In this document: positions 30,357 to 53,754 of the stretch, piece after piece | Numbering within the stretch: position 1 is the first letter of the stretch | Layout: every line of letters begins with the position of its first letter | Source: Mycobacterium sherrisii | GTDB taxonomy: Bacteria > Actinomycetota > Actinomycetes > Mycobacteriales > Mycobacteriaceae | Reading direction: 5' to 3' | Assembly (NCBI RefSeq): GCF_002102355.1 | Contig: NZ_LQPT01000023.1 | Location: 62,001-126,000 of the forward strand | Length of the DNA: 64,000 nt | Notes under the pieces: generated by a model | Seen by the model: only the letters and a program-made list of their open reading frames with translations | Databases searched by the model: none | What the model was told of the DNA's origin: nothing | Program-made: the position numbers and the translations under genes

Positions 30357-30403
30357 ATATATTCGACTGCGGAACTACGCCCAGGGTCGAAGGGTGGGCA
30401 ACC

Positions 30404-31129: not shown

Positions 31130-31162
31130 ATAGAGTTGATCCCGACGAAGCGGAGTGGGGAC

Positions 31163-34503: not shown

Positions 34504-34507
34504 GCAC

Positions 34508-35353: not shown

Positions 35354-35588
35354 ACCTGGACGGTATACGCAGCGCGATTGTGGACCGTCGCGGGTCAACC
35401 TGAAGCCCGGTGCCGGCCCTCGCCCCGCGTCCAGCCGCGCGTGGCCAATACCCGGGCGCATCGAGCTCATCTCCGCCCCCGTGCTTCGCCGACTGATGGT
35501 GAAGCGAGGCGGGTTCCCCCAACCCGCCCAGGATTTCGTCATCGGCAGCGGGGCGCCGGGACCGAGTTCCTCGAGGCAGCAGCTTGCG

Positions 35589-38500
35589 TCACGGAGGGTC
35601 TTGCGTGGTCTGAGCCAGCCGGGACACGACGTCCGTCAATGACGCCCCGCCGAGCAAGTCCGCGACATCCAGTTCGTGGTCCAGCGCGATCTTGACCCGA
35701 CGCCGGAACTCGAGTGCCTGCAACGAATCCAGGCCCATCGCAACCAGCGGCAGGTCGGTGTCGACCGGATCCTGGTTGGCCACACCGAAAGTGTCCAGCA
35801 GGATGCCGCGCACCGTGCTGGCGACGTCGGTCGGCCCACCGGCGACGACCGCCCGGTGGGCGGGTGAGGTCAGTTGCGAAAGCAGCGGCCCGTAGCCGTA
35901 CGGCTCGAGCATCAGCCGGGCGCGATCCAGCTCGAGGGCCATGACGATGGCATTGTGACGCAGCGGGGCCAACCCCACCGCGAGTGCGTCGGCGGGCGGC
36001 ATGGGGATGACGCCGATGGCGGCCAGCTGGGCGATGACGTCGGCGTCGAGGTCGAGGTGTACCTGCCACTGACCCCACTGCAGGGAAACACAATCCAGGC
36101 CCCCGGCGCGGAGCTCGTGCGCCATGGCGTCCAGCATGCGGTTGCTCGCCGCGTAGCTGATCTGTCCGCGACCGCCGATCGTCGCCGCCACCGAAGAGCA
36201 AAACAGCAGCCGGCAGCCCGCCGACCGCGGGTAGGCTTCCAGCACCTGAGCGATTCCGACCACCTTGGCGCCCAGCGCCCGGTCCAGCTGTTCGGCGGTG
36301 AGGTCCGGGGAGTCGGCGGCCGAATAGTCCACGGCGGCATGGATTATCAGATCCGCTGGGGTGTCGTGGTGCGCGCGAGCGAGTTGGGCCACCGCAGCCG
36401 GGTCGCGCACATCGCAGGGCGTCACCCGCACCTGCGTCCGGTTCGCGTGGGCCGAACCGATCTGGCGCAGTCCGGCCTCGACCGCGGCCGTCGCGCCTGA
36501 TCTGCTGACCAACGTGATCAGACGCGCTCCGCGCCGCAGGTAGTGCTCACAGAACTTCAGGCCGAGGTGCCCGGTGCCGCCGATGATGAGCACATGATCG
36601 GGCGGCACACCAGCGGAGTCGACGGGAATATCGCGGTGCGCCAACCGCTTTGCATAGAGGGCATCGCCGCGGCGGGCCAACTCCGGCTCGTCCCGGGTAT
36701 GTATCGCGGCCAGGATCGCGTTCGCCGACTCCGGCGTCGTCAAATCGGCGGGCAGATCGAGATGCTTGAAACCGACGCCCGGGTATTCGGCCCCGATGCT
36801 GCGAAAACCCGCACTCGCGGCGGCATGCACCGGGTTCGGTGGTGCGTCGTCGGCCAGCACCACCTCACCGGCCACCGTCACCAGCCAGCAGTCGGCGCCG
36901 GCACCGGCGAGTCGGGGTAGCCAGGTGCGGTCGGAGAAAAGCGCGGTGACCTCCTCGGCGGCGGCACGGTAGTCCGTGCGGGCCGACCGGGGAAGCAAGA
37001 TCACCAGGGTATCGAGATCTGCTCGTGCACCGGTGTCTTCACCGTCGATCGGGTGAGCGGTGGCGCCCATATCGGTCGCCGCAGCGCACAGAGCGGCAAT
37101 TAAGTCCGGCTGCGCCCGGGTGTAGTCGACGAAACCGATGGTGCGCGGCGGCACCAAGGAGCGGCGCGACAGCCGGACCCATTCCTCGGCGAACAGTTGG
37201 GGTCGTGCGATCGGCGCGGCCGGGTTGGGGTCCGGCGATGTGCCGGTGACCTGCTCGCCGCCGGCCAGCCACAGCCGGGTCTCGCTCATCCGGGTGTTGG
37301 GGAAGTCGAGCAACGGAAGTGGTGTGGGCCCGTCGGTGTCGGTGCGCAGGCACGACCACGGGTAGTCGGCGTGATGAACTGCCAGCACCGCAAGACTGCG
37401 GGTGAACGCGGTCAAGTCGGTGACCGTGCGCTGCGACGTACCCACCACCAGGGGGTTACCGTTCGTCCTGGCCGCTGCGATGTTGTCCTGCATGGGCAGT
37501 TGCAACGTCGGGTGTTCGGCGAGTTCGACGAAGGTATCGGCGCCACGGGATATCGCGGCCGCGATTGCCTTGTCGAACCGAACGATGTTGCGCAGGTTGG
37601 AAAACCAGTACTGTCCGGTGGGTGTGCCCGCCGTGAGGGCGGCGCCGAACGTGGAGCCGAAACACTCGGTGCTGGTCTGCGGAAAACTGCGGTCTTGCAG
37701 TTGTCGTTGCAGGTCGGCGAGCAGCGTGTCGCCGACAGTGTCGATTCGGCTCGTGTGCGCGGGGAACCGGACGTCGATGACCCGGGCGAAGACGCCGCGC
37801 TCGGTCAACGTGTCCACGACACCCTGGATCGTGGCGCGTTCGCCCGAGATCCCCAGCATGCCAGGCGAATTGATGACCGATAACTCCGCCCAGCCCGAGC
37901 AGCGTGCCAGCAGGTCTGCGCAGGTGTGGCGGTCGGTGGCGACGACCGCCATGGCGTAGTCGCCGGGGGCGAACTCCTCGGCCGCCCGCGCGCGTAGGCC
38001 CACCACCGTGACGGCGTCGGCCAGCGAAACTCCGCCCGCTACGTAGGCCGCGGCAATCTCTCCTTGGCTGTGCCCGATCGTGATGTCCGGTGTGATCCCG
38101 AACGACCGCCACATCGCCGCCAGCCCGGCCATCTGGGTGAACAGCGCCGCCTGGATGGTGAGCGCGTTCCCGTCATCCGGGATATGTTGATCGATAAGGT
38201 AATTCAGCGGCGACCGGCCCAGTCGGGCCTCGAATGCCTGGGCGCAGTGCTCCGCTTCCGAACGGAAGGCGGGGACCGAGTCATAGAACAGTCGTCCCAT
38301 GCCCGGATGTTGTATTCCCTGCCCGGGGAAGACGTAGGCGAGTCGTCGGTGGGTGGCGGGTGTTTCGGCACGGACCACCGAAGGATGGTCGAACTCCCCG
38401 GCGATCGCGCGCAGCGCGGCCAGCAGGTCGGCCCGGACGCCGGCCAGCACCAGAGCACGGTGTGGGCGGGCGGTGCGGGTGCGAAACAACATCGCGGCAA

Positions 38501-38639
38501 TGGCCTGTGGCTCGACCTCGGGATGGTTTGTGGCATAAGACAATAGCGCGGCAGCTTCGTCGCGCAACAGTTCCCGGGTGTTCGCCGACAGCAGGACGGG
38601 GATCGTGCCGTCCGGGAGTCGGTAGGTGCAAACGGTCAC
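35589..38639 (-). CDS. MbtD-like polyketide synthase (AT-KR-ACP)
   Basis: A 1016-residue protein without a KS. An acyltransferase (about residues 95-420) has FPGQG near 104 and the active Ser in GHSQGE (Ser191). The usual HAFH/YASH specificity block reads FPAHTS. A ketoreductase (about 690-880) has GGTGHLGLKF and the SYAASN catalytic Tyr. A C-terminal carrier domain has the GLDSLQ phosphopantetheine Ser. Order and length match MbtD of mycobactin assembly (about 1004 residues as I recall). Start GTG 38639 abuts the KS stop (TAAGTG). It should load an acyl unit, extend with the partner KS and reduce the beta-keto group. Confidence 0.9.
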   Translation of the reverse strand: MTVCTYRLPDGTIPVLLSANTRELLRDEAAALLSYATNHPEVEPQAIAAMLFRTRTARPHRALVLAGVRADLLAALRAIAGEFDHPSVVRAETPATHRRLAYVFPGQGIQHPGMGRLFYDSVPAFRSEAEHCAQAFEARLGRSPLNYLIDQHIPDDGNALTIQAALFTQMAGLAAMWRSFGITPDITIGHSQGEIAAAYVAGGVSLADAVTVVGLRARAAEEFAPGDYAMAVVATDRHTCADLLARCSGWAELSVINSPGMLGISGERATIQGVVDTLTERGVFARVIDVRFPAHTSRIDTVGDTLLADLQRQLQDRSFPQTSTECFGSTFGAALTAGTPTGQYWFSNLRNIVRFDKAIAAAISRGADTFVELAEHPTLQLPMQDNIAAARTNGNPLVVGTSQRTVTDLTAFTRSLAVLAVHHADYPWSCLRTDTDGPTPLPLLDFPNTRMSETRLWLAGGEQVTGTSPDPNPAAPIARPQLFAEEWVRLSRRSLVPPRTIGFVDYTRAQPDLIAALCAAATDMGATAHPIDGEDTGARADLDTLVILLPRSARTDYRAAAEEVTALFSDRTWLPRLAGAGADCWLVTVAGEVVLADDAPPNPVHAAASAGFRSIGAEYPGVGFKHLDLPADLTTPESANAILAAIHTRDEPELARRGDALYAKRLAHRDIPVDSAGVPPDHVLIIGGTGHLGLKFCEHYLRRGARLITLVSRSGATAAVEAGLRQIGSAHANRTQVRVTPCDVRDPAAVAQLARAHHDTPADLIIHAAVDYSAADSPDLTAEQLDRALGAKVVGIAQVLEAYPRSAGCRLLFCSSVAATIGGRGQISYAASNRMLDAMAHELRAGGLDCVSLQWGQWQVHLDLDADVIAQLAAIGVIPMPPADALAVGLAPLRHNAIVMALELDRARLMLEPYGYGPLLSQLTSPAHRAVVAGGPTDVASTVRGILLDTFGVANQDPVDTDLPLVAMGLDSLQALEFRRRVKIALDHELDVADLLGGASLTDVVSRLAQTTQDPP

Positions 38640-39929
38640 TTACTCACCCGGCGAACCAGCAGGCATGGCGATGAGCGCGTGGGCATTGGCGCCGCCGGCG
38701 CCGAACGACGACACCGCCCCGTATCGGATGCCGTTCTTCGGTTGCCAGCGGTGCAGTTTCGTGGCCAGCTGCACACCCGTGCGGGTCCAGTCAACCTTTG
38801 TGGTGGGATTGTCCGAGAACAGGGTCGGCGGTATGTGACCGTGTTGGCCGGCCAGCAGCACCTTGATCAGCCCGAGTATCCCCGCCGCCGCCTGGGCGTG
38901 CCCGGCGTTCGATTTGATCGAGCCCAGGAAAGCCTGCGATCCCAACGCGCCGTAGGTCTCGAACAGGGCGGTCAACTCCACCGGGTCGCCGGCGCGAGTC
39001 GCGGTGCCGTGGCCCTCGATCATGCCCACATCGGTCGCTTCGACTTCCGCCGCGTCCAGTGTCTTTCGGATCACCTGCTGTTGCGCGTGCGCACGGGGAA
39101 CCAGGATCGGCTGGCCTTTTCCGTTGTGGTTGGTGCGCACGGCGAGAATGCGCCCGTAGATCCGGTGGCCCAGCCGGCGCGCGCGTGCTTCGGTCTCGAC
39201 GAGCAGCATTCCCGCGCCCTCGCTCCACACCGTGCCGGTGGCATCGTCGGCGTAGGCGCGGCAATGCCCGTCCTCGGAAAGGGCGTTGAGGCGGGCGAAC
39301 TCGTAGAAGGCCAGCGGCGATCCCATCACGCACACCGCACCGGCCAGCGCCCATTCGCATTCGCCGCTCCGAACGGCGTTGGCCGCCAACTGAAGTGCGG
39401 CCAACGACGAGGCGCAGGCGGAGTCGACGCACAGCGACGGGCCGGTCAGGCCGAGGCAGTGCGAAATGCGGGCCGCCGCCCCGAGTTGCCCGAGACTGAC
39501 GACCCGATGTCCACTGACCGCGTCGGCGGCGGTGCCGGGCGGCCCGTACGCATACGGCGACATGCCGACGAAGCAGCCGCCGTCCTCGCCGTCCAGCGCA
39601 TCGGGATTGATTCCCGCGTTTTCCAGCGCCTTCCAGGCCACCCGCAGTGCAACCCGCTGCTGGGGATGCATCGCCACAGCCTCGCGGTGCGTGACGCCGA
39701 ACAAGGACGGGTCGAAAGTCGCTGCGTTGTCCAAAAATCCGCCCGCATCACACACCTGCCCCCAGCCGTCGAGCCGTGACACGGTCAGCAGATCGTCGAT
39801 GGGCCAACCGCGGTCGCGCGGAAGGGCGCCGACGAGTTCCCGCGCTTCGGCAAGCGCGGCCCACAGGCCACCCAGGGTGTCGATCCCGCCGGGTGCCTCG
39901 ACGGCCATGCCGGAAATGACGACGCTCAT
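38640..39929 (-). CDS. MbtC-like ketosynthase
   Basis: A 429-residue stand-alone beta-ketoacyl synthase. The active-site Cys172 is in VDSACASS, the His residues are in EGHGTATRAGDP and KSNAGHAQAAAG, and the whole fold (AMHPQQRVALRVAW through SSFGAGGANAHAL) is complete. It closely resembles mycobacterial MbtC, which supplies the KS missing from MbtD, so KS plus AT-KR-ACP form one split PKS module. It overlaps the thioesterase stop as ATGA and adjoins the AT-KR-ACP gene. It should perform one decarboxylative condensation producing a short beta-hydroxyacyl link after KR action. Confidence 0.92.
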   Translation of the reverse strand: MSVVISGMAVEAPGGIDTLGGLWAALAEARELVGALPRDRGWPIDDLLTVSRLDGWGQVCDAGGFLDNAATFDPSLFGVTHREAVAMHPQQRVALRVAWKALENAGINPDALDGEDGGCFVGMSPYAYGPPGTAADAVSGHRVVSLGQLGAAARISHCLGLTGPSLCVDSACASSLAALQLAANAVRSGECEWALAGAVCVMGSPLAFYEFARLNALSEDGHCRAYADDATGTVWSEGAGMLLVETEARARRLGHRIYGRILAVRTNHNGKGQPILVPRAHAQQQVIRKTLDAAEVEATDVGMIEGHGTATRAGDPVELTALFETYGALGSQAFLGSIKSNAGHAQAAAGILGLIKVLLAGQHGHIPPTLFSDNPTTKVDWTRTGVQLATKLHRWQPKNGIRYGAVSSFGAGGANAHALIAMPAGSPGE

Positions 39930-40654
39930 AGCAACAGCTTCGAGACCGCTTCGAGGTGGGATTCCAGGTAGAAGTGTCCGCCGTCGAACATGGTGACCGC
40001 CACCGCGTCGGCGTGCTTACCCCAGTCGTAGAGATCGCCCAGCGTGACGTTCGGGTCTCGATCCCCGGCCAGGGCGTGAACCGGTACGGCGACCCTGGCG
40101 CCCGGCGCGCAGCGGTACGCATCGAACGCCGCATAGTCGGCCTTGACCACCGGCAGCGCCAGCCTCATGATCTCCCGGTTGGCGAGCACGGCGGCGTCGG
40201 TGCCCTGCAGCGCTGCCAGATGGTCGAGCAGATCGTCATCGTCGACGGGATGGGGCGGCTTGTCGGCCACCCGGCACGGGGCGACCGCGGCCGAAACGTT
40301 GAGACGCCGCACCTCCATCCCGCTGGCTTCGGCGAGCCGCACGAATTCGAACGCCACGATGGCGCCCATGCTGTGGCCGAACGCGACGACCGGGCGCCCG
40401 GCGTGCTGGGACGCCGAGAATTCCTGGAATGCCCCCGCCGCCATGTCTTCCAGTGAGCCGAGCAATGGTTCGTTCGCGCGGTCTTGACGTCCGGGGTACT
40501 GGAAAACGATGACGTCGAACTGCGCACTGCAAAGCTTGGAGAATTCACGGTAGGCGGAGGCACCGGCCCCGGCATGGGGAAAAGCGAGCAGCGAGGTGCC
40601 CTTCGCCGGTTCCGCAGGGTGGAACTGCCGCATCCATCCCAGCCCGCGCGGCAT
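39926..40654 (-). CDS. Type II thioesterase (MbtT-like)
   Basis: A 242-residue alpha/beta-hydrolase of the external thioesterase type: FPHAGAGASAY at the N-terminus, the nucleophile elbow FGHSMGA (Ser95), GDRDPNV for the acid and MFDGGHFYLESH for the catalytic His, so the triad is complete. Such proteins edit mis-primed carrier domains or release product. It is the first gene of the minus-strand operon with the KS and AT-KR-ACP genes. Its start faces the NRPS operon across the IdeR-like box. Confidence 0.9.
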   Translation of the reverse strand: MPRGLGWMRQFHPAEPAKGTSLLAFPHAGAGASAYREFSKLCSAQFDVIVFQYPGRQDRANEPLLGSLEDMAAGAFQEFSASQHAGRPVVAFGHSMGAIVAFEFVRLAEASGMEVRRLNVSAAVAPCRVADKPPHPVDDDDLLDHLAALQGTDAAVLANREIMRLALPVVKADYAAFDAYRCAPGARVAVPVHALAGDRDPNVTLGDLYDWGKHADAVAVTMFDGGHFYLESHLEAVSKLLL

Positions 40655-40778
40655 GCAACCACCTCGATCCTGTCAACCCGCCCGGCGGCGTACGGACCGT
40701 GTGCCCACCGGCCGCACCGCCCCCGCGCGTGCATGCACCGGGGCGTCCGGGTACCGCGGGCGTCCGCGAGACGATAAC

Positions 40779-40797
40779 GTAGCGAAGGCTAACATAA
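40779..40797. promoter_or_regulatory. IdeR-like iron box in the divergent promoter
   Basis: GTAGCGAAGGCTAACATAA matches the mycobacterial IdeR consensus TTAGGTTAGGCTAACCTAA in 14 of 19 bases, including an unbroken AGGCTAAC core. It lies midway between the two divergent starts, about 125 bp before the thioesterase and about 122 bp before the first NRPS. IdeR represses siderophore genes when iron is sufficient, so this predicts iron control of both operons. Binding is untested. Confidence 0.6.
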
Positions 40798-40918
40798 CTT
40801 CAGCCGCGACCAGTTGTCGCTCGGATGAGCGCCGATGAAGCGTCGTGCCAACCGAATCGCGCGGTCGCCCAGGCGGGCCGGCGGCGGTCTCGCCGATGAA
40901 CGGAGAGTGAGTTAAGTC

Positions 40919-43900
40919 GTGGCGGACGACGCCAAAACGCTGCAGGAGAAACAACTCGAACTCCTGCGGCGGCGGATCGCCGAGAATGGCTTGGCTGCGA
41001 CGGCCCCCGCTCAACCTCGGCAACTTGTGCCGGGTGAACGCTACCCACTGTCGTCGGGTCAGCTGCGGATGTGGTTCCTGCAGGCCATGGACCCCGCCGA
41101 GACCGCCCTCAATATCGGCGTTGCCTACCGGCTGGCGGGCGCTGTGGACGAAGCGCGGCTGCGGGCCGCGGTGAGCAATGTCGTTGCACGCCACGCCATC
41201 CTGCGCACCACCTACGGAGTGGACGCCGACGGCGAGCCGTACCAAACCTTTGCCGATCACGTCGAGACCCCGTGGCAAGTACGCGATTGGACCGGCCGGG
41301 CCGGCACGGACCTCGTCGAGGCGGCGCGACGCGAATTCGCCCGGCCCTTCGACCTGGCCAACGAACTGCCGCTGCGGATCACCCTGGGACGTCTGGCCGA
41401 GCGCGAGTTCGCACTGGTGCTCGTCGTGCACCACATCTGTTGGGACGACGACTCGTGGGCGGTCTTCCTGCACGAGCTGGGCGTGGCCTACGAAGATCGT
41501 CGGCTGGCCTTGCCGGCGACCCAGTTTGTCGCCGTCGAAGTTCTCGGCAATTCAGCCGCACCGTCCGATGACGATCTCGATTACTGGCGCAAAACACTAC
41601 GGCCGCTGCCCGAACCGCTGGAGCTGCCGGGCACAGCGAGCAGCCCGCCGGCGGCACAGCCGTCCAAACGCGCCGCCAGTCGAACCCGCATGCTGCCCGT
41701 GGAGTTGTTCACCCGGGTCGAAGACTTCGGCCGCAACCACTCCGCCACCCCATTCATGGTGTTGCTGGCGGCCTTCGGTGCGCTGGTGCGGCGCTACACC
41801 GGCGCCTCGGACTTCGTCGTCTCGGTGCCGGTAACCGAACGCAGCGCCGCGGCCGAGCAGGCCATCGGCTATTTCGGGAACACCCTGTTGCTGCGGATCG
41901 CGCCGGAGCCGTCGGACACGTTCGCATCGCTGGTCGGCGCCGTCCGGGAAACCTGCCTGAGCGGATTTGCCCACCAGTCGGTGGGCATCGAACAGTTGGT
42001 CCGCGAGCTCAACCCGGAACGGACGTTCGGCGGCGGAGGCACCGATCAACTGGTCCGGTTGGGTTTCAGCCTGCGCAAAAGCGCGGACGCACTGGCGCTC
42101 GACGGGATCGCCGTGCGGCAACTGCAGGTGCCCGCGGTGACCACGCAGGTTCCACTTGCCGTCGCGGTGGTGCTCGACACCGGCGGCGTTTACGTCGAGT
42201 TCGAATACCAAACCGACGTCCTGGCGGCCGAGCTCGTCGAGCGGATGCAGGACCACTACCTTCGACTGCTGGACAACGCGCTGTGCGAGCCGGACCGACG
42301 TCTGGCGAGTCTGCAGTTTTTCGGGTCGGACGAATTGGCCGCCATCCTCACGCAATCCCGGGGCGAGCGTGTCGACCCACCCGCAAGCACCATGGTGGCG
42401 CTACTCGAAGCTGCGGCGACCGCCGCGCCGACGGCGGTCGCGCTGATCTCCGACGATGCGGAACTGACCTACGAACAGCTGCACAGCCGGGCGAATCGGT
42501 TGGCACGCTGGCTGGTTGCGCAGGGGATCGGCGCCGACGACGTCATCGGACTGCGGATGACAACTTCGGTCGAGTTCATGGTCGCCGTGTTGGCGACGTT
42601 GAAGGCCGGTGCCGCGTATCTGCCGATCGACCCGGCTAATCCGGCCGATCGCATCGAGTACTTCGTCAGTGACGCCGCGCCGCGCCTGGTCTTCGGGCGC
42701 GAGGAATTCGACGCCGCAGAACGCGCCGCCGCTCCGATGCCGGATTCGGATCTCACCGACGCCGAACGGCTCCATCCACTACATCCCGAGCACCTGGCCT
42801 ACGTGATCTACACTTCCGGGTCCACCGGCCTGCCCAAGGGCGTGGCGGTGTCGCACCGCGCCCTGGCCGAGCATCTGTACAGTTTCTTCACCGAGTGGAC
42901 ATTGACTCCCGAAGATATTGCTTTGCAATGGATTTCGGTGAGCTTTGATGCGTCGCTAGCGGAGATCTTCGGCGCGCTCGCCTTCGGCGCAAAGCTGGTC
43001 GTGCCCAAGCCGGATGCGTTCGGGGACATGGCCTACGTTGCCGAACTGATGAACCGCCACCACATCACCGTGTTGCAGATGGTGCCCTCGATGCTGAACG
43101 TGCTGCTGCTGCTCCCGGAGCCGGCACAGTGGAACAGCCTGCGGCACATGGCAGTCGGTGGCGAGCCGCTGTCCGGCGAGGTGGCCGACACGTTCACCCG
43201 GCATTTCGACGCGGAGCTGCGCAATCACTACGGCCCCACCGAGGCCGTCGTCTGCGCCACCCATATGCCGGTCGACGGGCCGCAGGGCGTTGGCGTGGTT
43301 CCGATCGGTGTTCCCAATCGCAATGTCTTCGCCTATGTCCTGGACATGGATCTGCAGCTGGTGCCCGCGGGCGTGATCGGTGAACTCTACCTCGGTGGAG
43401 TGCAGCTGGCGCGTGGGTATCTGAACCAGCCGGTGTTGACCGCGGAGCGGTTTGTCGCGGACCCGTTCAACCCCGGCACGCGGATGTACCGGACGGGAGA
43501 TCTAGTACGCCGCAACAGTTCTGGTGTCCTCGAGTTTCTTGGCCGGGCGGACGAACAGGTCAAGATCCGGGGGTACCGGATCGAACCCGGCGAAATCGAG
43601 TCCGTGATTGCGGGGCACCCGGCCGTGCGGCATTGCCTGGTCGTCGTCGAAGACACGGTGGCGGGCCGCACGCTCGTGGCTTACGTGGTGCCGGCCGCGG
43701 CGGCGGAGGAGCCCGCGCGCACCCACGCGGACGTCGATCTCGGCGAGATACGCGCTTTTGCGGCATCGGCATTGCCGGAATACATGGTGCCCAGCGCCTT
43801 CGGGGTAATCACCGACATCCCGTTGACCAATAGTGGGAAACTGGATAAGCGGGCGCTGCCCGCACCCATGCCCATCGCTGCGTCGAGCTATCGTGCACCG

Positions 43901-45955
43901 GCGACACCGACCGAACGTCGGGTCTGTGCCATCTTCGCCCGGCTGTTCGACTGCGAGCGCGTCGGTGCGCAGGACTCGTTCTTTCAGTTGGGCGGTCATT
44001 CACTGCTGGCGGCCCGGCTCGTCGCGCAGATCCGCGCCGAGTTCGGTATCGAGCTCAGCGTCCGTGCCGTGTTCGATTCCCCGACCCCGGCCGGGCTAGC
44101 GGAAAGACTCGTCGCACAGTTTCTCGCCGACTACGACATTGACCTGGACGAGCTCGACGACGACGACATCGCCGCCGAGCCCCGGTCGCAGCGCCCGGCG
44201 CTCGTCGAATGCGCTCGGCCGGAACGCCTTCCGTTGTCGTACTCCCAGCTTGCGATGTGGTTTCAGTACCGAATGGAGGGCCCGAGCGCGGGTGTGAACA
44301 TTGCGATCGGACTCCGGATCGAGGGCCCGCTGGACGCCGCCGCACTCAACGCCGCGCTCAACGACGTGGTGCGCCGGCACGAGTCACTGCGCATGCACAT
44401 TCGGGAGCACCAGGGCATGCCGTACCAATCGGCATCCCCGACGCGGGAACTGCAGCTGCCCGTCACCACGGTCGATTCGACCGGAGTCGACGGGGCGGTG
44501 ACCGAGCTGTGCCGGTACGCGTTCAAGCTGGAGTCCGAACCTTTGATCCGGGCAACGTTGTTGGCGCAGGACCCGAATCGGCATGTGCTGCTGTTGCTGG
44601 CGCACCACATCATCATCGACCACGCCTCCCTGAGAATCGTGCTGCACGACCTCACCGTCGCATACCGTGCGCGGCTGAAATCGACGGCGCCAGAGTGGGA
44701 TCGGTTACCCATCGACTACGCCGACTACGTCCTTTGGCAGCACCGCGCCTTCGACGCGTCCAGCGAATGGGGTCACGCCGAACTGGCATACTGGCGCGAA
44801 GCGTTGGCCGGGCTGCCCGAGGAGACCTCGGTCGCGCTCGACCACGTCCGACCGCCGGTGCTGGGCCGTCACGCCGCGGTGTCCAGCGTGCTGGTGCCGG
44901 CTGCGCGCCGGGCGGCACTTGCCGAACTCGCCGAGCACAGCAGCGCCACCGAGTTCATGGTCTATCAGGCCGCGCTTGCGGTGGTGTTGCACAAGCTCGG
45001 CGGCGGCAACGACATCGCCATCGGCACTCCGGTGGCTGCCCGGGTCGACCCCGGCACGGTCAACGTGATCGGCTTGCTCGCCAACGTGGTGGTGCTGCGC
45101 ACCGACCTATCCGGCACGCCCTCGCTGCGCGACGTCATCACACGCAGCCGCGACGTGGTGCTCGACGCGTTCGCGCACCAGGAAGTGCCCATCGCGCGGC
45201 TGGTCGAGGAGATCAATCCGCCCCGCACACGATCACGTAACCCGTTGTTCCAGAACATGCTTCACTTCCACGGCGACGACTGGGCACTGGCGCAGCGTGA
45301 CCTCACCGAGGCGGGCGGAACCAAGATTGTGCCCCTGCGGTCAGAGTTCGACGTCTCGCTGTTGGATCTGGACGTCGGAATCAACGTGACCCCCGATGGG
45401 GGCCTCGAGGTGCGGGTCGTCGGCAACGCGGACCTCTACCAGCCCACAACCGTCGCCCTCATCGCCGACGCGTTGACCGCCGTCATCGAGGCCTTCGCCA
45501 CGACACCCGACGCCGCCGTGTCAACGCTGGAGCTGTTGCCGGAAGCCGCACTGGACCGGCTGCGCCGCGCGCCGACGCCCAACGTCGGCGGGCGGTCACA
45601 ACCGCTCACCGCGGCGGCCGCACAAACCCAGCAAGTCCTGATCGAGGTGCTCGAAGAACTGCTGGAAATCGGCGGTGTGGCGGCGACCGACAACTTCTTC
45701 GCCCTCGGCGGAGACAGCATCATCTCGATCAAGTGGTCGGCACGAGTCATCGAGCGGGGATTGGCCCTGACCCCCGCAATGGTGTTCGAGCACGCAACGA
45801 TCGGCGAGTTGGCCGCGGCCGTCGACGCGGCCACCGATTCCCCTGCCGCGGCAGCCGATTCGACACCGGAACGTGATTACACGCCGATGAGTGCGTCGGG
45901 CCTGAGCACCGACGCGTTGGCGGACCTCACCGCGGCCTGGGAGAATCGTCAATGA
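40919..45955 (+). CDS. MbtE-like NRPS, C-A-PCP-C-PCP
   Basis: A 1678-residue NRPS. C1 (about 40-480) has HHICWDDDSW (His171-172). The A domain (about 490-1000) has YTSGSTGLPKG near 631 and GELYLGGVQLARGY. PCP1 has GGHSLL with Ser1028. C2 (about 1090-1530) has HHIIIDH (His1229-1230). PCP2 has GGDSIIS with Ser1600. The second module thus has no A domain. The A-domain specificity code read by eye against GrsA is D-A-A-Q-M-V-H-V-C-K, which I cannot match to a known substrate. Length is near MbtE (about 1682 by memory). Start GTG 40919, with GGAGAG upstream. The next NRPS begins 7 bp later. Confidence 0.92.
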   Translation: MADDAKTLQEKQLELLRRRIAENGLAATAPAQPRQLVPGERYPLSSGQLRMWFLQAMDPAETALNIGVAYRLAGAVDEARLRAAVSNVVARHAILRTTYGVDADGEPYQTFADHVETPWQVRDWTGRAGTDLVEAARREFARPFDLANELPLRITLGRLAEREFALVLVVHHICWDDDSWAVFLHELGVAYEDRRLALPATQFVAVEVLGNSAAPSDDDLDYWRKTLRPLPEPLELPGTASSPPAAQPSKRAASRTRMLPVELFTRVEDFGRNHSATPFMVLLAAFGALVRRYTGASDFVVSVPVTERSAAAEQAIGYFGNTLLLRIAPEPSDTFASLVGAVRETCLSGFAHQSVGIEQLVRELNPERTFGGGGTDQLVRLGFSLRKSADALALDGIAVRQLQVPAVTTQVPLAVAVVLDTGGVYVEFEYQTDVLAAELVERMQDHYLRLLDNALCEPDRRLASLQFFGSDELAAILTQSRGERVDPPASTMVALLEAAATAAPTAVALISDDAELTYEQLHSRANRLARWLVAQGIGADDVIGLRMTTSVEFMVAVLATLKAGAAYLPIDPANPADRIEYFVSDAAPRLVFGREEFDAAERAAAPMPDSDLTDAERLHPLHPEHLAYVIYTSGSTGLPKGVAVSHRALAEHLYSFFTEWTLTPEDIALQWISVSFDASLAEIFGALAFGAKLVVPKPDAFGDMAYVAELMNRHHITVLQMVPSMLNVLLLLPEPAQWNSLRHMAVGGEPLSGEVADTFTRHFDAELRNHYGPTEAVVCATHMPVDGPQGVGVVPIGVPNRNVFAYVLDMDLQLVPAGVIGELYLGGVQLARGYLNQPVLTAERFVADPFNPGTRMYRTGDLVRRNSSGVLEFLGRADEQVKIRGYRIEPGEIESVIAGHPAVRHCLVVVEDTVAGRTLVAYVVPAAAAEEPARTHADVDLGEIRAFAASALPEYMVPSAFGVITDIPLTNSGKLDKRALPAPMPIAASSYRAPATPTERRVCAIFARLFDCERVGAQDSFFQLGGHSLLAARLVAQIRAEFGIELSVRAVFDSPTPAGLAERLVAQFLADYDIDLDELDDDDIAAEPRSQRPALVECARPERLPLSYSQLAMWFQYRMEGPSAGVNIAIGLRIEGPLDAAALNAALNDVVRRHESLRMHIREHQGMPYQSASPTRELQLPVTTVDSTGVDGAVTELCRYAFKLESEPLIRATLLAQDPNRHVLLLLAHHIIIDHASLRIVLHDLTVAYRARLKSTAPEWDRLPIDYADYVLWQHRAFDASSEWGHAELAYWREALAGLPEETSVALDHVRPPVLGRHAAVSSVLVPAARRAALAELAEHSSATEFMVYQAALAVVLHKLGGGNDIAIGTPVAARVDPGTVNVIGLLANVVVLRTDLSGTPSLRDVITRSRDVVLDAFAHQEVPIARLVEEINPPRTRSRNPLFQNMLHFHGDDWALAQRDLTEAGGTKIVPLRSEFDVSLLDLDVGINVTPDGGLEVRVVGNADLYQPTTVALIADALTAVIEAFATTPDAAVSTLELLPEAALDRLRRAPTPNVGGRSQPLTAAAAQTQQVLIEVLEELLEIGGVAATDNFFALGGDSIISIKWSARVIERGLALTPAMVFEHATIGELAAAVDAATDSPAAAADSTPERDYTPMSASGLSTDALADLTAAWENRQ

Positions 45956-45962
45956 GGCGCGC

Positions 45963-48900
45963 GTGACGCAGGCCCCGCCGTCGATCGAGGATGTCCTTGC
46001 CCTCAGCCCGCTGCAGGAAGGGCTCTTCGCGCTGTACCGGCTCGCCGAGGACAGCGTCGACCTCTACACGATGCAGTTCGAGTTCGACGTTGACGGACAG
46101 GTGGACCTTCAACTGCTGCGCCGCAGCGCGCAGGCCATGCTGGAACGGCACCCGAATTTGCGTGCCGCGTTCTGGGATCACGGCGTGCCGAAGCCCGTGC
46201 AGATCATCCCGACCGCGGCCGAGTTTCCCTGGTTCGAAAGGACCGCGACGGCAACCGAATTCGCCCGCATCGCCCGATCGGAACGACACCGCCCGTTCGA
46301 CTTGAGCCGCGGGCCGGCCATGCGCATCGTCATGCTGACCGTGCCCGGCCAGACACGACGCCGGATGATCCTCACCGCGCATCACATCCTGGTCGACGGC
46401 TGGGCACTCGCCGTGTTCTTCACCGAGATGCTGGCCGTCTATCGTGCCGGGGGATCGTTGTCGGCGCTGCCGCCCGCCCGGCCCTACCGCGACTACATCG
46501 TCTGGTTGGCCCAACAGGACCGCGGGGCCGTGCTGGCCAGGTGGCGTGAGTATCTGTCGAGTGTCTCCGGACCATTGATCATGGCCGAAAAGGCGGTCGC
46601 GGCGGGCACCGTGGTGCCCCAGCAGACCGGACTGGTGCTGTCGCCCGCCGACACAACCCGGCTGCGCGGGTGGGCGGGCCGAAACGGCCTCACCCTCAAT
46701 ACCGCGGTGCTGTTCGCGTGGTCCGTCGTGCTCGCCCGCCTCAGCGGCCGTCCCGATGTGGTGTTCGGCACCATCGTCTCCGGTCGCCCCGAAGACCTGC
46801 CCGGGGTCGAGACCATGGTGGGGCTGTTCATCAACACCGTGCCGGTGGTGCACCGCGTGAGCGACCAGACTCCCGTGGTCGAGCAGTGTGCACAGCTGCA
46901 GCGTGAGCTGTCGGTGATGCGTGACATCGGTTATGTGGGCCTGTCCGAACTGCAGCGTCCCCAGGGCGGCGGGCCGCTTTTCGACACCCTGTTCGTATTC
47001 GAAAACGCGCCGATCGATCAGGCGATCCAACCGATCACCACGCCCGACGGTGCCCGGTTCTGCCCGGTGCAGATGGAGAGCCTGACACACTACCCGTTGA
47101 CCGGGGTGTCGCACCTGGCCGGCGACGCACTGGTGGTGGTCGTCGAGGCGATTCAGGAAGCGTTGCCAACTTTTCCCGCCGCGCAGATCTGCGCCCGGAT
47201 GGTTGCGGTGCTGCGCCAACTCCCCGACATCGGCGAGGGCACCCCCGCCCTGTTCGACGTGCTCACCCCGGCCGAGCATGCGCAACTGACAGATTGTGCA
47301 GCCCAACCGATCCCCGTCGCCAACTCGGTGTGGGAGATGTTCGAAGGACAGGCCCGCGCGGTACCCGACGCGGTCGCCCTGTCGGCCGGCGCTTCCGAGC
47401 GGTACACCTACGCGGAACTGCACGCGCGCGCCTGCCGGCTGGCGGGGGAATTGGCACACCGCGGCGTGGGTCCGGAATCGGTGGTGGCGCTAGTGCTTCC
47501 GCGCGCGGCGCGATCGATCGTGGCGATCCTGGCGGTGCTCGGGGCCGGCGCGGCGTATGTGCCGGTCGACGTCACGCTCCCCGCCGCCCGCATCGAGGCC
47601 ATTTTCCGGCGGGCCGAACCGGTCCTGGCGATCACCGAGCAGGCCTACGCGGAACTGGTCGGTGCCCGCGCACCGGCCCTGATCCTCGACGATCGGGAAG
47701 TGGCCGAACGTCTTTCGCGGCTGCCCGCGGCTGCACCGGTGGTCCACCGCGACCCGGACCACAGCTGCTATGTGATATTCACCTCGGGCTCGACCGGCGA
47801 ACCGAAGGGCGTCGTCGGCACCAACGGTGCGGTATTGACCTACTTCGCCGACCACCGCGAGCGCGTTTACCGTCCGGTATCGGCGCGGCTGGGCCGCGCG
47901 CTGCGGATCGCCCACACGTGGTCGTTGAGCTTCGACGCCTCCTGGCAGCCGATGATCGGTCTGCTCGATGGTCACCGGGTGCATCTGTTCGACGCAGAGG
48001 AGATGCGTGACGCGGATCGACTGGTCCGCGGGATGGCCGATCACCAGATCGACATGATCGACACCACCCCGTCGATGTTCGTGCAACTTCGCGCCGCCGG
48101 GCTGCTGCGGCGGGCCCTGCCGGTCTTGGCCCTGGGCGGCGAAGCGATCAACACCACGCTGTGGGAGCAGCTGCGATCGTCGTCCGCCGGCGCGGTCTTC
48201 AACTGTTACGGGCCCACCGAAGCCACCGTCGAGGCGGTAGTGGCACCCGTAGCGGAGTACGAAACACCGACAATTGGCATCGCCAACGCCGGAACATATT
48301 GCTATGTACTGGATCCGGCGTTGCGAGCGGTTCCCGGCGGCGCTGTCGGCGAGCTGTATCTGTCCGGCCTGCAGCTGGCCCGCGGCTATCTCGGCAGTCC
48401 CGCGATGACTGCCAGTCGGTTCGTGGCGGATCCGTTTCGCCGGGGATGGCGGATGTATCGCACGGGCGATCTGGTGCGTCGGCTACCGCATGGCGGGTTG
48501 GCCTTCCTGGGGCGGGACGACAGCCAGGTCAAGATTCGCGGCTATCGCGTCGAGCTGGGCGAGGTCGAGGCCGCACTGACCGCCCAACGCGGGGTGCGAG
48601 CGGCGGCCGTGTCCGTGCTGCGTCGTGCCGGCGGTGCCGTGTTGGTGGGCTTCGTCGTCGCACAACCGGATACCGATGACCACCTGGCGGCGCTGCGGGA
48701 TCAGCTGCCGCCGCATATGGTTCCGGCGCGCATCGTGGCGCTGCCGCGTCTTCCGATGACTACCAACGGCAAGCTCGATCTCGCCGCGCTGGACCGGCTG
48801 GCCGAAGATGCACTCGTCCGCGTCACACCGGGAACCGGCGCGTCCACCGACACCGAGCGGACGCTGTGCGAGGTCTTCAAGGAACAGTTTTCCGGTGCGG

Positions 48901-50465
48901 TGCCACATGTCGATGACGACTTGTACGCCCTCGGATTGGACAGCATCCTCGCGATTTCGCTGGTGCACGAGCTGCGCCGGCACGGATGGCCGGTGAGTCC
49001 CCGAATGGTGTTGGAAGCAACGACAATTCGTCAGCTCGCGGGTGCGATCGATGCGGCCGGGGCGCAACCGGCGCATGCGGACGCCGAATACGGCGTGGTA
49101 CCCCCGCTGCCGATCGTGTCCTGGTTGTTCGAGTACGGGAACTACCGGCGGTTCACCAATACCGCTGTGCTTCGGCTGCCGGACGAGGTCGACCTTGGGG
49201 CAATCGAAGGCATATTGCAGACGCTGCTCGACGGTCACGACGTGCTGCGGGCGGTGCTGACCGACACGGCCGAAGGGCCGCGGCTGCTCACCCGTGAACC
49301 CGGTGTGGTCTCTGCCGCGGACGTTCTCACCCGTGTCGAGCTATCCGGCGATTGCGAACTGGGGCCGGCCCTTTCCGAGGCCGCCCCGCGCATCATGGAC
49401 AAGATCGATCCGCGTGCCGGCACCCTGCTGCAGGCGGTGTGGTTCACCGGCGCCGCCAGCGGTGCGGCGCTGCTGCTCACGATCCACCACCTGGCGGTCG
49501 ACGTCGTCTCCTGGCATACCATCCTCGGCGATATCACCGCGGCGTGGAACTCCTTGCAAATGGGCGCGGCGCCGAAGACGTTGCCCGAGTTCACTTCCTA
49601 CCGGCGTTGGTCGCAATTGATGTGGGCGCGAGCGTCGGCTCCGGAAGTGTTGGTGCAGCGCGACTACTGGGCCGGCCAGGTGCGTGACCCCGATCCGGCG
49701 TTGGGAGTCCGGTATCCGGACCCCACCCGGGACACCTGGTCGAGTTTGCAGGTGGGGGAGGTGGCGACACCGGTCGCCGAGACCGAGCGGGTGCTCGCCA
49801 GCCTGACCCGGGAAGCCGGACTGCACGAATTCCTGCTGGCCGCACTGACCTTGGCGGTGACCGCCTGGCGGCGCGAACGCGGCCAAGATGCAACCACGGG
49901 AACGTTGATCACGCTCGACGGTCACGGCCGCCGCGATGATGTACTGGGCACCGACGCCACCAACACCGTCGGTTGGTTCACCACGGCCTATCCGGTGCGG
50001 CTTCCGGCGGGCCCCACGACCCCGGCGGCCGGGCGGGACGAGGTCGACCCGGCAGCGGCGCGCGCGCTGCTCGAATCGGTGGTCGGGCAGCTGGCGGCGA
50101 TCCCCCACGAAGGCCTCGATTACGGGTTGCTGCGTTATGTGAACCGGGTTCCGGAGCTGTGCAACGCGCCCGAACCTCAGATCATGTTCAGCTACCTGGG
50201 GCGCCTGGATCTGGCGAGCACCACCGACCAGCCCTGGACGCTGCTCACGGGATCTGACATCGAGGGGCTGCCGGTGGCGGCCGAACCGGACCTGCCGCTG
50301 CGCTTCGCGGTGTACATCAGCGCGCATGTGCGTCGCACGTCGCGGGGGCCGCAACTGGTGACCAGCCTGCTCTGGGGCGATGCCCTGTTCACGGCGTCCG
50401 ACATCGACCGGCTGACGCACTGCTGGCGGCGCAGCATCACCGCGATCGCTCGCGGCCTGGCATAG
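45963..50465 (+). CDS. MbtF-like NRPS, C-A-PCP-E
   Basis: A 1500-residue NRPS from GTG 45963. C (about 5-440) has HHILVDGW (His140-141). The A domain (about 450-930) has FTSGSTGEPKG near 606, LYLSGLQLARGY and NGKLDL. PCP has GLDSIL (Ser994). The last domain (about 1040-1480) carries HHLAVDVVSW (His1175) and PQIMFSYLGRLD near 1405, hallmarks of an epimerisation domain. The A-domain code read by eye is D-A-Q-D-L-L-C-V-E-K. Its first five resemble Gln/Glu-type codes, the rest does not, so no substrate is assigned. No thioesterase follows. It resembles MbtF (about 1461 residues) in layout. Confidence 0.92.
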   Translation: MTQAPPSIEDVLALSPLQEGLFALYRLAEDSVDLYTMQFEFDVDGQVDLQLLRRSAQAMLERHPNLRAAFWDHGVPKPVQIIPTAAEFPWFERTATATEFARIARSERHRPFDLSRGPAMRIVMLTVPGQTRRRMILTAHHILVDGWALAVFFTEMLAVYRAGGSLSALPPARPYRDYIVWLAQQDRGAVLARWREYLSSVSGPLIMAEKAVAAGTVVPQQTGLVLSPADTTRLRGWAGRNGLTLNTAVLFAWSVVLARLSGRPDVVFGTIVSGRPEDLPGVETMVGLFINTVPVVHRVSDQTPVVEQCAQLQRELSVMRDIGYVGLSELQRPQGGGPLFDTLFVFENAPIDQAIQPITTPDGARFCPVQMESLTHYPLTGVSHLAGDALVVVVEAIQEALPTFPAAQICARMVAVLRQLPDIGEGTPALFDVLTPAEHAQLTDCAAQPIPVANSVWEMFEGQARAVPDAVALSAGASERYTYAELHARACRLAGELAHRGVGPESVVALVLPRAARSIVAILAVLGAGAAYVPVDVTLPAARIEAIFRRAEPVLAITEQAYAELVGARAPALILDDREVAERLSRLPAAAPVVHRDPDHSCYVIFTSGSTGEPKGVVGTNGAVLTYFADHRERVYRPVSARLGRALRIAHTWSLSFDASWQPMIGLLDGHRVHLFDAEEMRDADRLVRGMADHQIDMIDTTPSMFVQLRAAGLLRRALPVLALGGEAINTTLWEQLRSSSAGAVFNCYGPTEATVEAVVAPVAEYETPTIGIANAGTYCYVLDPALRAVPGGAVGELYLSGLQLARGYLGSPAMTASRFVADPFRRGWRMYRTGDLVRRLPHGGLAFLGRDDSQVKIRGYRVELGEVEAALTAQRGVRAAAVSVLRRAGGAVLVGFVVAQPDTDDHLAALRDQLPPHMVPARIVALPRLPMTTNGKLDLAALDRLAEDALVRVTPGTGASTDTERTLCEVFKEQFSGAVPHVDDDLYALGLDSILAISLVHELRRHGWPVSPRMVLEATTIRQLAGAIDAAGAQPAHADAEYGVVPPLPIVSWLFEYGNYRRFTNTAVLRLPDEVDLGAIEGILQTLLDGHDVLRAVLTDTAEGPRLLTREPGVVSAADVLTRVELSGDCELGPALSEAAPRIMDKIDPRAGTLLQAVWFTGAASGAALLLTIHHLAVDVVSWHTILGDITAAWNSLQMGAAPKTLPEFTSYRRWSQLMWARASAPEVLVQRDYWAGQVRDPDPALGVRYPDPTRDTWSSLQVGEVATPVAETERVLASLTREAGLHEFLLAALTLAVTAWRRERGQDATTGTLITLDGHGRRDDVLGTDATNTVGWFTTAYPVRLPAGPTTPAAGRDEVDPAAARALLESVVGQLAAIPHEGLDYGLLRYVNRVPELCNAPEPQIMFSYLGRLDLASTTDQPWTLLTGSDIEGLPVAAEPDLPLRFAVYISAHVRRTSRGPQLVTSLLWGDALFTASDIDRLTHCWRRSITAIARGLA

Positions 50466-50487
50466 ACACGGCATGGAAAGGCGTGCG

Positions 50488-51897
50488 ATGGATCGGATTG
50501 GTGCGCTGACGGCCGGAGCCCCGTATCCGGTGCAGACGAGGTTCGCGTTCCGCACGGGCGTGACCTGCGTGACGACGTCCACGGGAGCGGTGTTGCTCGA
50601 CCCGCCGCACAGTGAGAAGCTGGCGAAACTGGCGCCCGGCGGGCTGCAGGCACTCAAGACGTTGAATTCCGGGCCGGCGACGCTGTCGGAGATGTCCACG
50701 TCGGCTGAACTCGATGAGGTGGGCGCCCTGCTCGATCGCCTCGCCGCGGCAGGGTGGCTGACGATTACGGTGCGCGACCAGGGCCGGGATCTCTACTCGG
50801 TAGTACCCTTCGCCCGACCGGCATCCCGGCCACCCGGGGGGCCGCCCGCGCAATCGGTGCAGCCGCTGGTGATGTCGAAGTTCGCTGTGCTGCACCGTGA
50901 CTCGGCGGGTTTCGTCCTCGAGCATCCGCTGGGCTGGTGCGATGTACGCATCCATGATGCGAATCTTCTTGCGCTACTTGACGGTTCGATACCAGACCGG
51001 CACGGCGTGACGGGGGCCGTCGCGGCACAGTTCCTGCGGGATCTGCGCTGGAGTGCAATCCTTGTTTCGGCCGGCGCCGACGAGGCCGAGTTCGACACGA
51101 TTGCCTGGAGTGCGCCCGATTTGTGGTTCCATCGCCGCAGCACGCTGGGGCAGCGCACGGTCGCCTGGGAGGACTTCGGTCCGACCAGGTGGGCAAGGGG
51201 CCGATTCCCGCAACCTCCCGCACGCCGGATGAATTACCCCAGCGAACCGATAGTCCTGTCCACCCCGGACCTCACCACCACGCGGGCGCAGGACCCCACA
51301 TTGACGGCGGTGCTGGAAGACCGGATCTCGACCCGGGCATTCGACGACAGCCGTCCGATGACGGTGCAGCAGCTGTCCGAGTTGCTCTACCGCACGGCAC
51401 GCACCCGCGGAATCGTCCCGGTCGGCGACGGCGAGCACCTGCTCTCCCGTCCCTACCCTTCGAGCGGCGGGCTGTACGAGCTCGAGCTCTATCCAGTGGT
51501 GCGCAATGTCGCCGGACTGCGGCCGGCCATGTACCACTACGACTCGTTCGACCACGTGCTGCGCCCGGTGGCCACCGCGGATTCGCGGCCGGTGTCGCAG
51601 CTGATCAAGGCGGCGTCGGCGACGCTGGCTGGTGGGGCCGAGCCGCAAGTGCTCGTCGTCATTGCCGCGCGCTCCGGCCGGATCACCTGGACTTACCAAC
51701 AGATCTGTTACGCAACGATTCTCAAGGATGTTGGGGTGTTGATGCAGACGATCTATCTGGCCGCAACGGCGATGAAGCTAGGGGCCTGCGCCCAGGGATA
51801 CAGCGACACCGCCGCATTTGCTGCCGCCACCGGCGTCGACGAGCTGCAGGAGTGCAGCGTAGGCAGCATCGTGGTGGGGTCACCGGTGCGAAATTAA
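50488..51897 (+). CDS. SagB-type FMN-dependent oxidase
   Basis: About 469 residues. A start at ATG 50488 follows GGAAAGG; ATG 50473 is possible. The N-terminal 210 residues are a poorly conserved winged-helix-like region seen in SagB/thiazoline-oxidase proteins. The C-terminal nitroreductase fold has SRPYPSSGGLYELELYPV near residue 315 and LKDVGVLMQTIYLAATAMKLGACAQG near residue 415, binding FMN. In RiPP and NRPS pathways this family oxidises azolines to azoles. No cyclisation domain is present in the NRPSs here, so its target is open. It is the last gene of the NRPS operon, 22 bp after it, and convergent with the cation exchanger. Confidence 0.88.
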   Translation: MDRIGALTAGAPYPVQTRFAFRTGVTCVTTSTGAVLLDPPHSEKLAKLAPGGLQALKTLNSGPATLSEMSTSAELDEVGALLDRLAAAGWLTITVRDQGRDLYSVVPFARPASRPPGGPPAQSVQPLVMSKFAVLHRDSAGFVLEHPLGWCDVRIHDANLLALLDGSIPDRHGVTGAVAAQFLRDLRWSAILVSAGADEAEFDTIAWSAPDLWFHRRSTLGQRTVAWEDFGPTRWARGRFPQPPARRMNYPSEPIVLSTPDLTTTRAQDPTLTAVLEDRISTRAFDDSRPMTVQQLSELLYRTARTRGIVPVGDGEHLLSRPYPSSGGLYELELYPVVRNVAGLRPAMYHYDSFDHVLRPVATADSRPVSQLIKAASATLAGGAEPQVLVVIAARSGRITWTYQQICYATILKDVGVLMQTIYLAATAMKLGACAQGYSDTAAFAAATGVDELQECSVGSIVVGSPVRN

Positions 51898-53225: not shown

Positions 53226-53754
53226 CCTTGTGTTCGAACGGGCGCCGATCGCGATGGCTGCTCGCCCACGGTACCCGGAATGCCGACCCCCAGCAACGCT
53301 CTAAGTACACCAAGCGACGGCCTCCGCCCGCCTATCTTTGCTGACCAGAGTACCCAATATGAGAAGTTAGGCGGCGCTAACTTAATTGTGTGGCAAACCT
53401 GCCGCGGTGTCTTGCCGGTGGTCGGCTGCGGTGGGCCGGCCTCGAGACGGCCGTGCCGCGGCCCCGAGCGGCACCTAGGGGTTGCTGAAGATCAGCGGTA
53501 TCCGGCGTGTCCGGCGTGTCCCAAAGGGTTCGCCGGCTCAGCTATCCGGCCCCATGGCCGCCGCCGCGACCTGGTCGAGCACCACCTGTCGGCAACCTCA
53601 TGAACTCCGTACGACAGCACGGGTTCTCGATCGCGAGTTTCCGGATGGTCCATGAAGCGCACACGCAACGCGTCTGCCTCGAGTTTTCGATTATTTGAGT
53701 TAATCTGTCGAATGTTCGCTATAACAGTAGAAACTTGGTCGGCAAGGAGTCAAC
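53226..53754. other. Long intergenic region
   Basis: About 530 bp without a convincing gene. It contains the inverted repeat at 53364-53383, a short tandem CCGGCGTGT at 53502-53518, and, near the right end, CGAA-TG-TTCG at 53709-53718, which may be an IclR-type operator. Short frames in it look random. The last 100 bp before the IclR gene are AT-richer, as a promoter would be. Confidence 0.45.
53364..53383. promoter_or_regulatory. Inverted repeat, possible metal-regulator site
   Basis: AAGTTAG-N6-CTAACTT is a perfect inverted repeat with 7-bp arms, 139-158 bp upstream of the exchanger start. Read as an iron box, TTAGGCGGCGCTAACTTAA matches the IdeR consensus in 14 of 19 bases, but the GTTAG/CTAAC arms are 6 bp apart rather than 1 bp, so another regulator is possible. 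Confidence 0.45.

Follow-up and report, generated by a model that had tools for sequence, protein, structure and literature searches.

Why would a mycobacterium that already has a mycobactin (mbt) cluster keep a second, related set of polyketide synthase (PKS) and nonribosomal peptide synthetase (NRPS) genes, and what could such a set make when it has no starter synthetase of its own? The question is raised by a locus of Mycobacterium sherrisii, found at positions 35589..51897 of a 64-kb stretch of DNA (G000:C23:62001-126000; called the window here) from a host genome of 5.56 Mb in 128 contigs. An earlier note on this DNA had proposed an undescribed offshoot of the mbt family. As judged from its sequence, the locus is a nocobactin (nbt)-type set, a known kind in an unusual, starter-less form. 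It is probably a second, nocobactin-type tail line for a likely siderophore, whose own starter gene is absent and which would take salicyl-oxazoline from the MbtB of the host. The unusual part is the missing starter NRPS, not the split divergent layout.

Family assignment of the locus

The locus is made of six open reading frames (ORFs), which are all open and without interruptions in the ORF translation of the window. Three lie on the minus strand: an NbtC-type PKS of 1016 aa (35589..38639), an NbtB-type ketosynthase (KS) of 429 aa (38640..39929; Pfam ketoacyl-synt, 1e-68), and an NbtA-type thioesterase (TE) of 242 aa (39926..40654; Pfam Thioesterase, 6.8e-45; motif GHSMG), which we take to be the NbtA of the Nocardia cluster. 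The PKS has the Pfam domains AT, KR and PP-binding in the order acyltransferase, ketoreductase, acyl carrier protein (AT-KR-ACP); the AT motif GHSQG and the carrier-protein serine motif GLDSL are both present. The KS keeps the active-site stretch DSACASS. The other three genes face them on the plus strand. By their Pfam domains, the NbtD-type NRPS (1678 aa; 40919..45955) has condensation (C), adenylation (A) and peptidyl carrier (PCP, or T) domains in the order C-A-PCP-C-PCP, and the NbtE-type NRPS (1500 aa; 45963..50465) is C-A-PCP-E. The last NbtE domain is Condensation-family in Pfam, and it was assigned as epimerization (E) by its place and by the description of NbtE in Nocardia. The third gene encodes a SagB-type flavin mononucleotide (FMN) azoline dehydrogenase of 474 aa (50473..51897; TIGR03605), and it starts 7 bases past the NbtE stop on the same strand. 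The divergent arrangement that the earlier note had described, with TE, KS and AT-KR-ACP facing the two synthetases and an FMN oxidase, was confirmed by ORFs, Pfam and TIGR03605.

When scored against the NCBIfam models, the window PKS passed the cut-off for NbtC (NF037941; 1324.8 bits, cut-off 1150) and failed that for MbtD (NF037940; 758.7 bits, cut-off 1150). The host's own PKS on contig C101 scored 1357 bits with the MbtD model. The set is thus of the nocobactin type. The resemblance in domain order and lengths to MbtC, MbtD, MbtE and MbtF noted earlier stands, but the best curated family is NbtC and not MbtD. The locus holds an NbtC equivalog, an NbtD of C-A-T-C-T and an NbtE of C-A-T-E composition; it holds neither an MbtD equivalog nor an MbtB. 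No starter NRPS (NbtF or MbtB), GNAT, MbtA, MbtG or MbtH was found in the window locus, and no starter of its own of the NbtF type (T-Cy-A-T) lies within the 64-kb window. The absence of NbtF is not strictly diagnostic, because some Nocardia subfamilies also have no nbtF in cluster I.

The window NbtE is 58-70% identical to NbtE of mapped mycobacterial nbt loci and 72% identical to that of the sister genome G216. The window KS shares 75% identity with that encoded on M. avium-complex plasmids. Overall, the window proteins are at most ~81% identical to the relatives compared, the highest value being the KS of G216. The mbt proteins of the host are distant paralogues, with 33-50% identity to the window proteins. 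The pocket letters of the NbtD A domain are DAAQAGHVC, against DA[AFILMP][HQ]PGH[VI]C in the fully parsed mycobacterial relatives; the positions were assigned by motif, and the first letters were mis-parsed in 7 rows.

The Nocardia nocobactin NA cluster I resembles the window in its NbtC equivalog, KS, C-A-T-C-T and C-A-T-E synthetases and linked SagB. PMC7413640 describes NbtB, NbtC, NbtD and NbtE with the same domains and a linked sagB in several subfamilies. Unlike Nocardia, the window's host adds a mycobactin cluster, the only starter found is MbtB, and the locus has no GNAT or NbtG. The pMAH135-like plasmids (NZ_CP023152, NZ_AP012556; mapped on NZ_CP023152) also have TE-KS-NbtC divergent from NbtD-NbtE, a SagB, and an iron box that is one base off from that of the window. 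The plasmid has NbtF and a GNAT, with SagB convergent, whereas the window has neither, and its SagB follows NbtE co-directionally. In M. abscessus, going by the papers' gene names and order, mbtT/C/D and mbtE/F/B (MAB_2119c-2121c and MAB_2122-2124) are divergent with a predicted iron box (PMC9505556, PMC9927159). This species makes the characterised mycobactin Ab, whose PKS-derived moiety bears a long alkyl chain, like that of the nocardial compounds (PMC9505556). By the papers' annotation, its starter MAB_2124 is in the cluster, whereas the window host has a starter in the mbt cluster only, plus an MbtC/MbtD line. The M. tuberculosis-type mbt cluster has the same kind of modules, but the window fails the MbtD cut-off, is divergent rather than co-directional, has a SagB and has no MbtB.

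As the type is known from Nocardia, from pMAH135-like plasmids and, by the papers' gene names, from M. abscessus, the product class is predictable, and the idea of an undescribed mbt offshoot was not borne out.

Host mycobactin genes

The refuting condition set in the earlier note was that these genes be the host's only mbtCDEF set. On contig C101, mbtA, mbtB, TE, mbtC, mbtD, mbtE, mbtF, mbtG and mbtH are clustered together, so the window set is a second set; this rules out that it is a sole, rearranged mycobactin locus, and the proposal of a paralogous set related to mbt was borne out. A new lipopeptide was rejected, as the family and the domain order are of the nocobactin type. Taken together, the "new pathway" reading is partly supported.

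The salicylate synthase also lies on C101 (TIGR03494, 608.6 bits; cut-off 325.15). A flag of one TGA inside this gene was rejected, as its ORF of 450 aa is open. The sole other MbtH match in the host is on contig C99. MbtN is on C81 (751 bits; cut-off 700), where it adjoins an MbtK-like GNAT. The functions of nbtG/H/S/T type may be covered in the genome by the mycobactin-type MbtG, MbtI and MbtA on C101 and by two GNATs elsewhere, and by none in the window locus. The second MbtK-like GNAT (Acetyltransf_8; L090, G000 C76:18130-18642) is away from both clusters. It is the host protein that best matches the GNAT found in nbt clusters (35%), which makes it a possible acyltransferase for the second line. 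The host mbtE (L085/L086, C101) is 2195 aa long, ~500 residues above the MbtE of G122 (1700 aa), and appears to contain a second A domain; mbtE matches of like length occur in G046, G393, G270, G071 and others.

Distribution of nbt loci

Of 148 genomes from the genus, 32 have NbtC over the cut-off. A larger draw gave at least 69 of 396, and a 70th genome (G045) has the gene in pieces; the figure is a lower bound because one or two candidates were scored per genome. Named carriers include M. asiaticum, M. gordonae, M. persicum, M. angelicum, M. celatum, M. kyorinense, M. colombiense and M. avium-complex plasmids. In the draw of 148 genomes, 33 NbtC loci were mapped. NbtD, NbtE and NbtF stand together in 21 of these, and NbtD and NbtE stand without NbtF in 4 (the window would make a fifth). 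An MbtB-type starter replaces NbtF in one locus, TE-KS-NbtC is alone in 4, and 3 are cut by a contig end. There is nothing unusual about a split divergent layout in the nbt family of mycobacteria, as it recurs across the mapped loci and the M. avium-complex plasmids. When the gene order of the window was sought in mycobacteria, the divergent layout with a nearby SagB proved common, so the layout is not distinctive. One genome, G040, has two different nbt satellites on separate contigs (L105-L106 and L151-L152), both without NbtF and one grouping with the plasmid type.

Starter synthetases in genomes with NbtC

The plasmid NbtF was used as query against the 70 NbtC-bearing genomes (E <= 1e-180, 10 candidates scored per genome). 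Each genome gave exactly one MbtB/NbtF-type match, 51 being NbtF-type (68-75% identity) and 19 MbtB-type (50-52%). MbtD over the cut-off is present in 19 of the 70 genomes, and G113 and G227 add an mbtD in two pieces, which makes 21 genomes with two lines; by our reading of the KS+TE tree, these form ~11 groups. A repeat search of the 21 used the host MbtB as query and scored 34 candidates in each genome. It, too, gave one MbtB/NbtF-type protein per genome: 10 have only the MbtB type (60-100%) and 11 only the NbtF type (51-54%). G006 and G227 also gave matches of 36-39% in other large NRPSs. The M. sherrisii genome has a single match, of MbtB type, inside the mbt cluster on C101, and neither survey found a second MbtB or NbtF in it.

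The two groups differ in what surrounds the starter. The 11 two-line genomes with an NbtF-type starter have mbtC, D, E and F and no mbtB in the mbt stretch read, and in the six with a mapped nbt flank (G006, G057, G071, G074, G091 and G113) mbtA and mbtG adjoin the nbt genes. In nine of the ten genomes with an MbtB-type starter, the nbt set comprises NbtD and NbtE but no NbtF, and in the remaining one, G122, it is TE-KS-NbtC alone. A further arrangement is seen in G033, G375 and G171, where a convergent MbtB comes after NbtE, with mbtA beyond it. No MbtD passes the cut-off in these genomes, which leaves MbtB as the sole candidate found to start the NbtD/NbtE line; in G171 there is an mbtE-like stretch as well. 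G201 splits these genes between two contigs, one with NbtD and NbtE and one with mbtA, B, E and G, and likewise yields no MbtD that passes the cut-off.

The SagB-type oxidase

The window oxidase scored 143.1 bits with TIGR03605 (cut-off 78.4). By sequence, the nearest solved structures are the SagB-type dehydrogenase (8pz5) and CyaGox (5lq4), at ~2.3e-51, followed by a putative nitroreductase, the NRPS oxidase BmdC (6.8e-05) and the microcin enzyme McbC (1.7e-04). These matches fit a predicted role in the oxidation of an azoline ring. In Nocardia, the presence of sagB tracks oxazole rather than oxazoline products, according to PMC7413640. A SagB match at E <= 1e-40 turned up in 42 of the 70 genomes that carry NbtC, and the window copy is the one SagB gene found in the host genome. 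It is present in 9/9 genomes with a starter-less NbtD/NbtE pair and mbtD against 33/61 others, although these are related species and not independent. In the 33 NbtC loci mapped from the draw of 148 genomes, SagB is on the strand opposite to NbtE wherever both were placed; of all loci mapped, only the window and G216 have the two co-directional.

Selection and iron regulation

The sister genome G216 has the same reduced nbt set with open nbt frames and the same neighbours: TetR, flavin monooxygenase (FMO) and short-chain dehydrogenase/reductase (SDR) genes on one side, and Na/Ca exchanger, IclR, CMD, LysR and PrpD genes on the other. Rates of nonsynonymous (dN) and synonymous (dS) change between the window and G216 were estimated by the Nei-Gojobori method. 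The values of dN and dS are 0.244 and 0.92 for NbtC, 0.114 and 0.92 for the KS, 0.143 and 0.96 for the TE, 0.175 and 0.99 for NbtD (1300 codons), 0.183 and 0.90 for NbtE, and 0.162 and 0.96 for SagB. For mbtD, host against G216, they are 0.151 and 0.64. The ratio for the nbt genes is ~0.12-0.27, and there are no stops in the copy of either species. A stop in one slice of the G216 mbtB, absent from the NbtF-query survey, was read as the slice overrunning the gene end. The dS of the nbt genes (~0.9-1.0) is higher than that of the mbt genes (~0.55-0.68). Flanking genes gave mixed dS values (0.35 to 1.5) and were not used, the SDR comparison having been mis-sliced.

A predicted IdeR-like iron box, TTATGTTAGCCTTCGCTAC, lies at 40779..40797 (minus strand) in the divergent gap between TE and NbtD. 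Boxes were scored as letters matching out of 19 to an IdeR consensus, and the window box matches at 14/19. Sites in the TE-NbtD gap reach at least 14/19 in 29 of the 30 loci scored; the one exception is Tsukamurella, in which these genes do not diverge. Six further sequences without TE or NbtD were left out of this scoring. An identical 19-mer, TTATGTTAGCCTTCGCTAA, occurs in 17 of the 30 loci, and the window is one base off. The box is kept in both the window and G216. Only four sites of at least 14/19 were found in 200,531 positions of own-genome sequence: in the window TE/NbtD gap, in the mbtA/mbtB gap, just upstream of the salicylate synthase, and upstream of the neighbouring exchanger gene. 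A conserved predicted site of this kind in the promoter places the window locus among candidate members of the IdeR regulon. From the box in the divergent promoter and the purifying selection against G216, we argue that the window set is live.

Proposed pathway

With no starter-synthetase gene of its own, the window line would have to borrow the starter of MbtB, and we infer that MbtB would hand its product to NbtD. Such sharing has comparative support in the one starter match of each NbtC-bearing genome surveyed. Under iron starvation, IdeR repression would be lifted on both clusters. MbtI would make salicylate, MbtA would activate it, and MbtB would condense and cyclise it with Ser or Thr to a phenyloxazoline. 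This head could then pass either to MbtE/C/D/F, giving mycobactin, or to NbtD, which would add a lysine. KS and NbtC would assemble a long-chain beta-hydroxy acid, to be attached as an ester by NbtD through its second C domain. NbtE would add and epimerise the terminal lysine, leading to caprolactam closure, and SagB would turn the oxazoline ring into an oxazole. Hydroxylation by MbtG and N-acylation by a GNAT would be provided from elsewhere in the genome. The predicted product is of nocobactin type: its long chain would sit in the ester moiety that derives from the PKS, where mycobactin Ab and the nocobactins also carry theirs (PMC9505556, PMC7413640). We found no statement of starter sharing in the open-licence literature on nocobactin and mycobactin, to which this search was confined.

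The same scheme may extend to the genus as a branched siderophore factory. A single starter, MbtB or NbtF, would feed two complete, separate tail lines. One starter would be shed when both lines reside together, so that either line can become the satellite. The window would be such a satellite, with SagB marking the branch with an oxazole. We give this wider scheme about even odds.

Several observations speak against starter sharing in M. sherrisii. The host assembly is in 128 contigs, the NbtF-query survey scored only 10 candidates per genome, and stop flags fall inside the match in 6 of the 21 main rows of the host-MbtB survey. We read the flags as matches overrunning the gene end, as the same genes are free of flags in the NbtF-query survey. 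M. avium TH135 breaks the pattern of a single starter with its two MbtB-like genes, chromosomal MAH_1627 and plasmid MAH_p49 (PMC4324632). When tested on independent pairs, a link of the form "no NbtF, hence mbtD" does not reach significance (median p 1), and the presence of NbtF changes only five times on the KS+TE tree. G033, G375, G171 and G201 have no NbtF and yet no MbtD over the cut-off. The docking ends of NbtD from genomes with MbtB-type and NbtF-type starters showed no obvious difference by eye. The window NbtD pocket departs from its relatives at one position, which is P in them. The window locus has no GNAT, and the two GNATs are elsewhere in the genome. Finally, the NbtD-type MAB_2122 of M. 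abscessus proved dispensable, and low iron did not induce it (PMC9927159).

Alternative explanations

The two lines might mix, for example with an NbtC-type PKS feeding MbtE/MbtF or SagB oxidising mycobactin, to give one mixed siderophore family. Natural pairings of this kind exist. In G039, G341, G063, G081 and G313, the stretches read hold TE-KS-NbtC along with mbtA, B, E, F and G but no NbtD, and no MbtD passes the cut-off. In these five and in G122, TE-KS-NbtC stands beside mbt NRPS genes without NbtD or NbtE in the stretches read. The six seem to be natural hybrids in which the PKS part was swapped or added, so module mixing between the mbt and nbt families recurs. The long chain of mycobactin Ab at the PKS position (PMC9505556) also agrees with mixing. 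However, the window has its own NbtD and NbtE, which are under purifying selection, and the host has kept mbtC and mbtD with open frames. A hybrid system is therefore unlikely in M. sherrisii.

A dedicated starter enzyme could be encoded elsewhere and have gone unrecognised, which would make the locus an ordinary nocobactin-type cluster with its own siderophore. Such a split has a precedent: PMC7413640 describes the nocobactin pathway of N. farcinica as divided into two clusters, and several Nocardia subfamilies as having no nbtF in cluster I with the core product intact. The host also has other large NRPSs besides the mbt and window sets. Against this, the single MbtB/NbtF-type protein found in the genome is the one in the mbt cluster on C101, and we consider a dedicated starter distinctly unlikely.

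It is also conceivable that the nbt set is a decaying relic, making nothing since the loss of the starter NRPS and GNAT. The satellite indeed has no starter, GNAT, MbtA, MbtG or MbtH gene, MAB_2122 is dispensable in M. abscessus (PMC9927159), and apparent frame breaks are seen in relatives, namely in the second NbtE of G040 and in the mbtD of G113 and G227. The window ORFs are nevertheless all open, dN/dS is well below 1 against G216 with no nbt stops in either species, the iron box is kept in both, and SagB retains 141 of the 147 columns that do not vary among 23 relatives. We regard decay as quite improbable. The view that the locus specifies a new mbt-derived metallophore or lipopeptide with an undescribed product could draw on the second set beside mbt and on the ceiling of ~81% identity to relatives (KS of G216), but membership of the curated NbtC family, the nocobactin domain order, the SagB linkage and the largely shared pocket letters point to a known product class and leave this view with very little credit.

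Neighbouring genes

The locus is flanked by the TetR, FMO and SDR genes at 30134-35542 of the window, which have the same order in G216. We rejected these genes (30-35.5 kb) as parts of the pathway owing to their narrow distribution: among the loci scanned, the SDR has a match above 40% in G216 only, and the FMO is found also in G010 and G108 at 40-46%. On the other side, a gene of the Na/Ca-exchanger family (51921-53225, minus strand) adjoins SagB. A box-like site of 14/19 lies at 53367-53385, ~140 bases upstream of it, and the same gene in G216 has a site of 15/19 (L184:8547). Going by these sites, the iron regulon in the lineage of the window and G216 may include a cation exchanger.

Implications

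If starter sharing holds, a mycobacterium with two mbt-like sets could produce two siderophores, distinct in the position of the chain and in the oxidation of the ring, that both depend on a single enzyme. Sets that are now called extra mycobactin genes would be relabelled as nocobactin-type. The relabelling might account for the duplicated mbtC, D, E and F that PMC10667711 reports from nontuberculous isolates, mostly outside the mbt locus, and would also bear on the question of what MAB_2122-like genes do. More generally, M. sherrisii would be an example from nature of a single NRPS starter that supplies two downstream lines, with a bearing on the recombination and the engineering of assembly lines.

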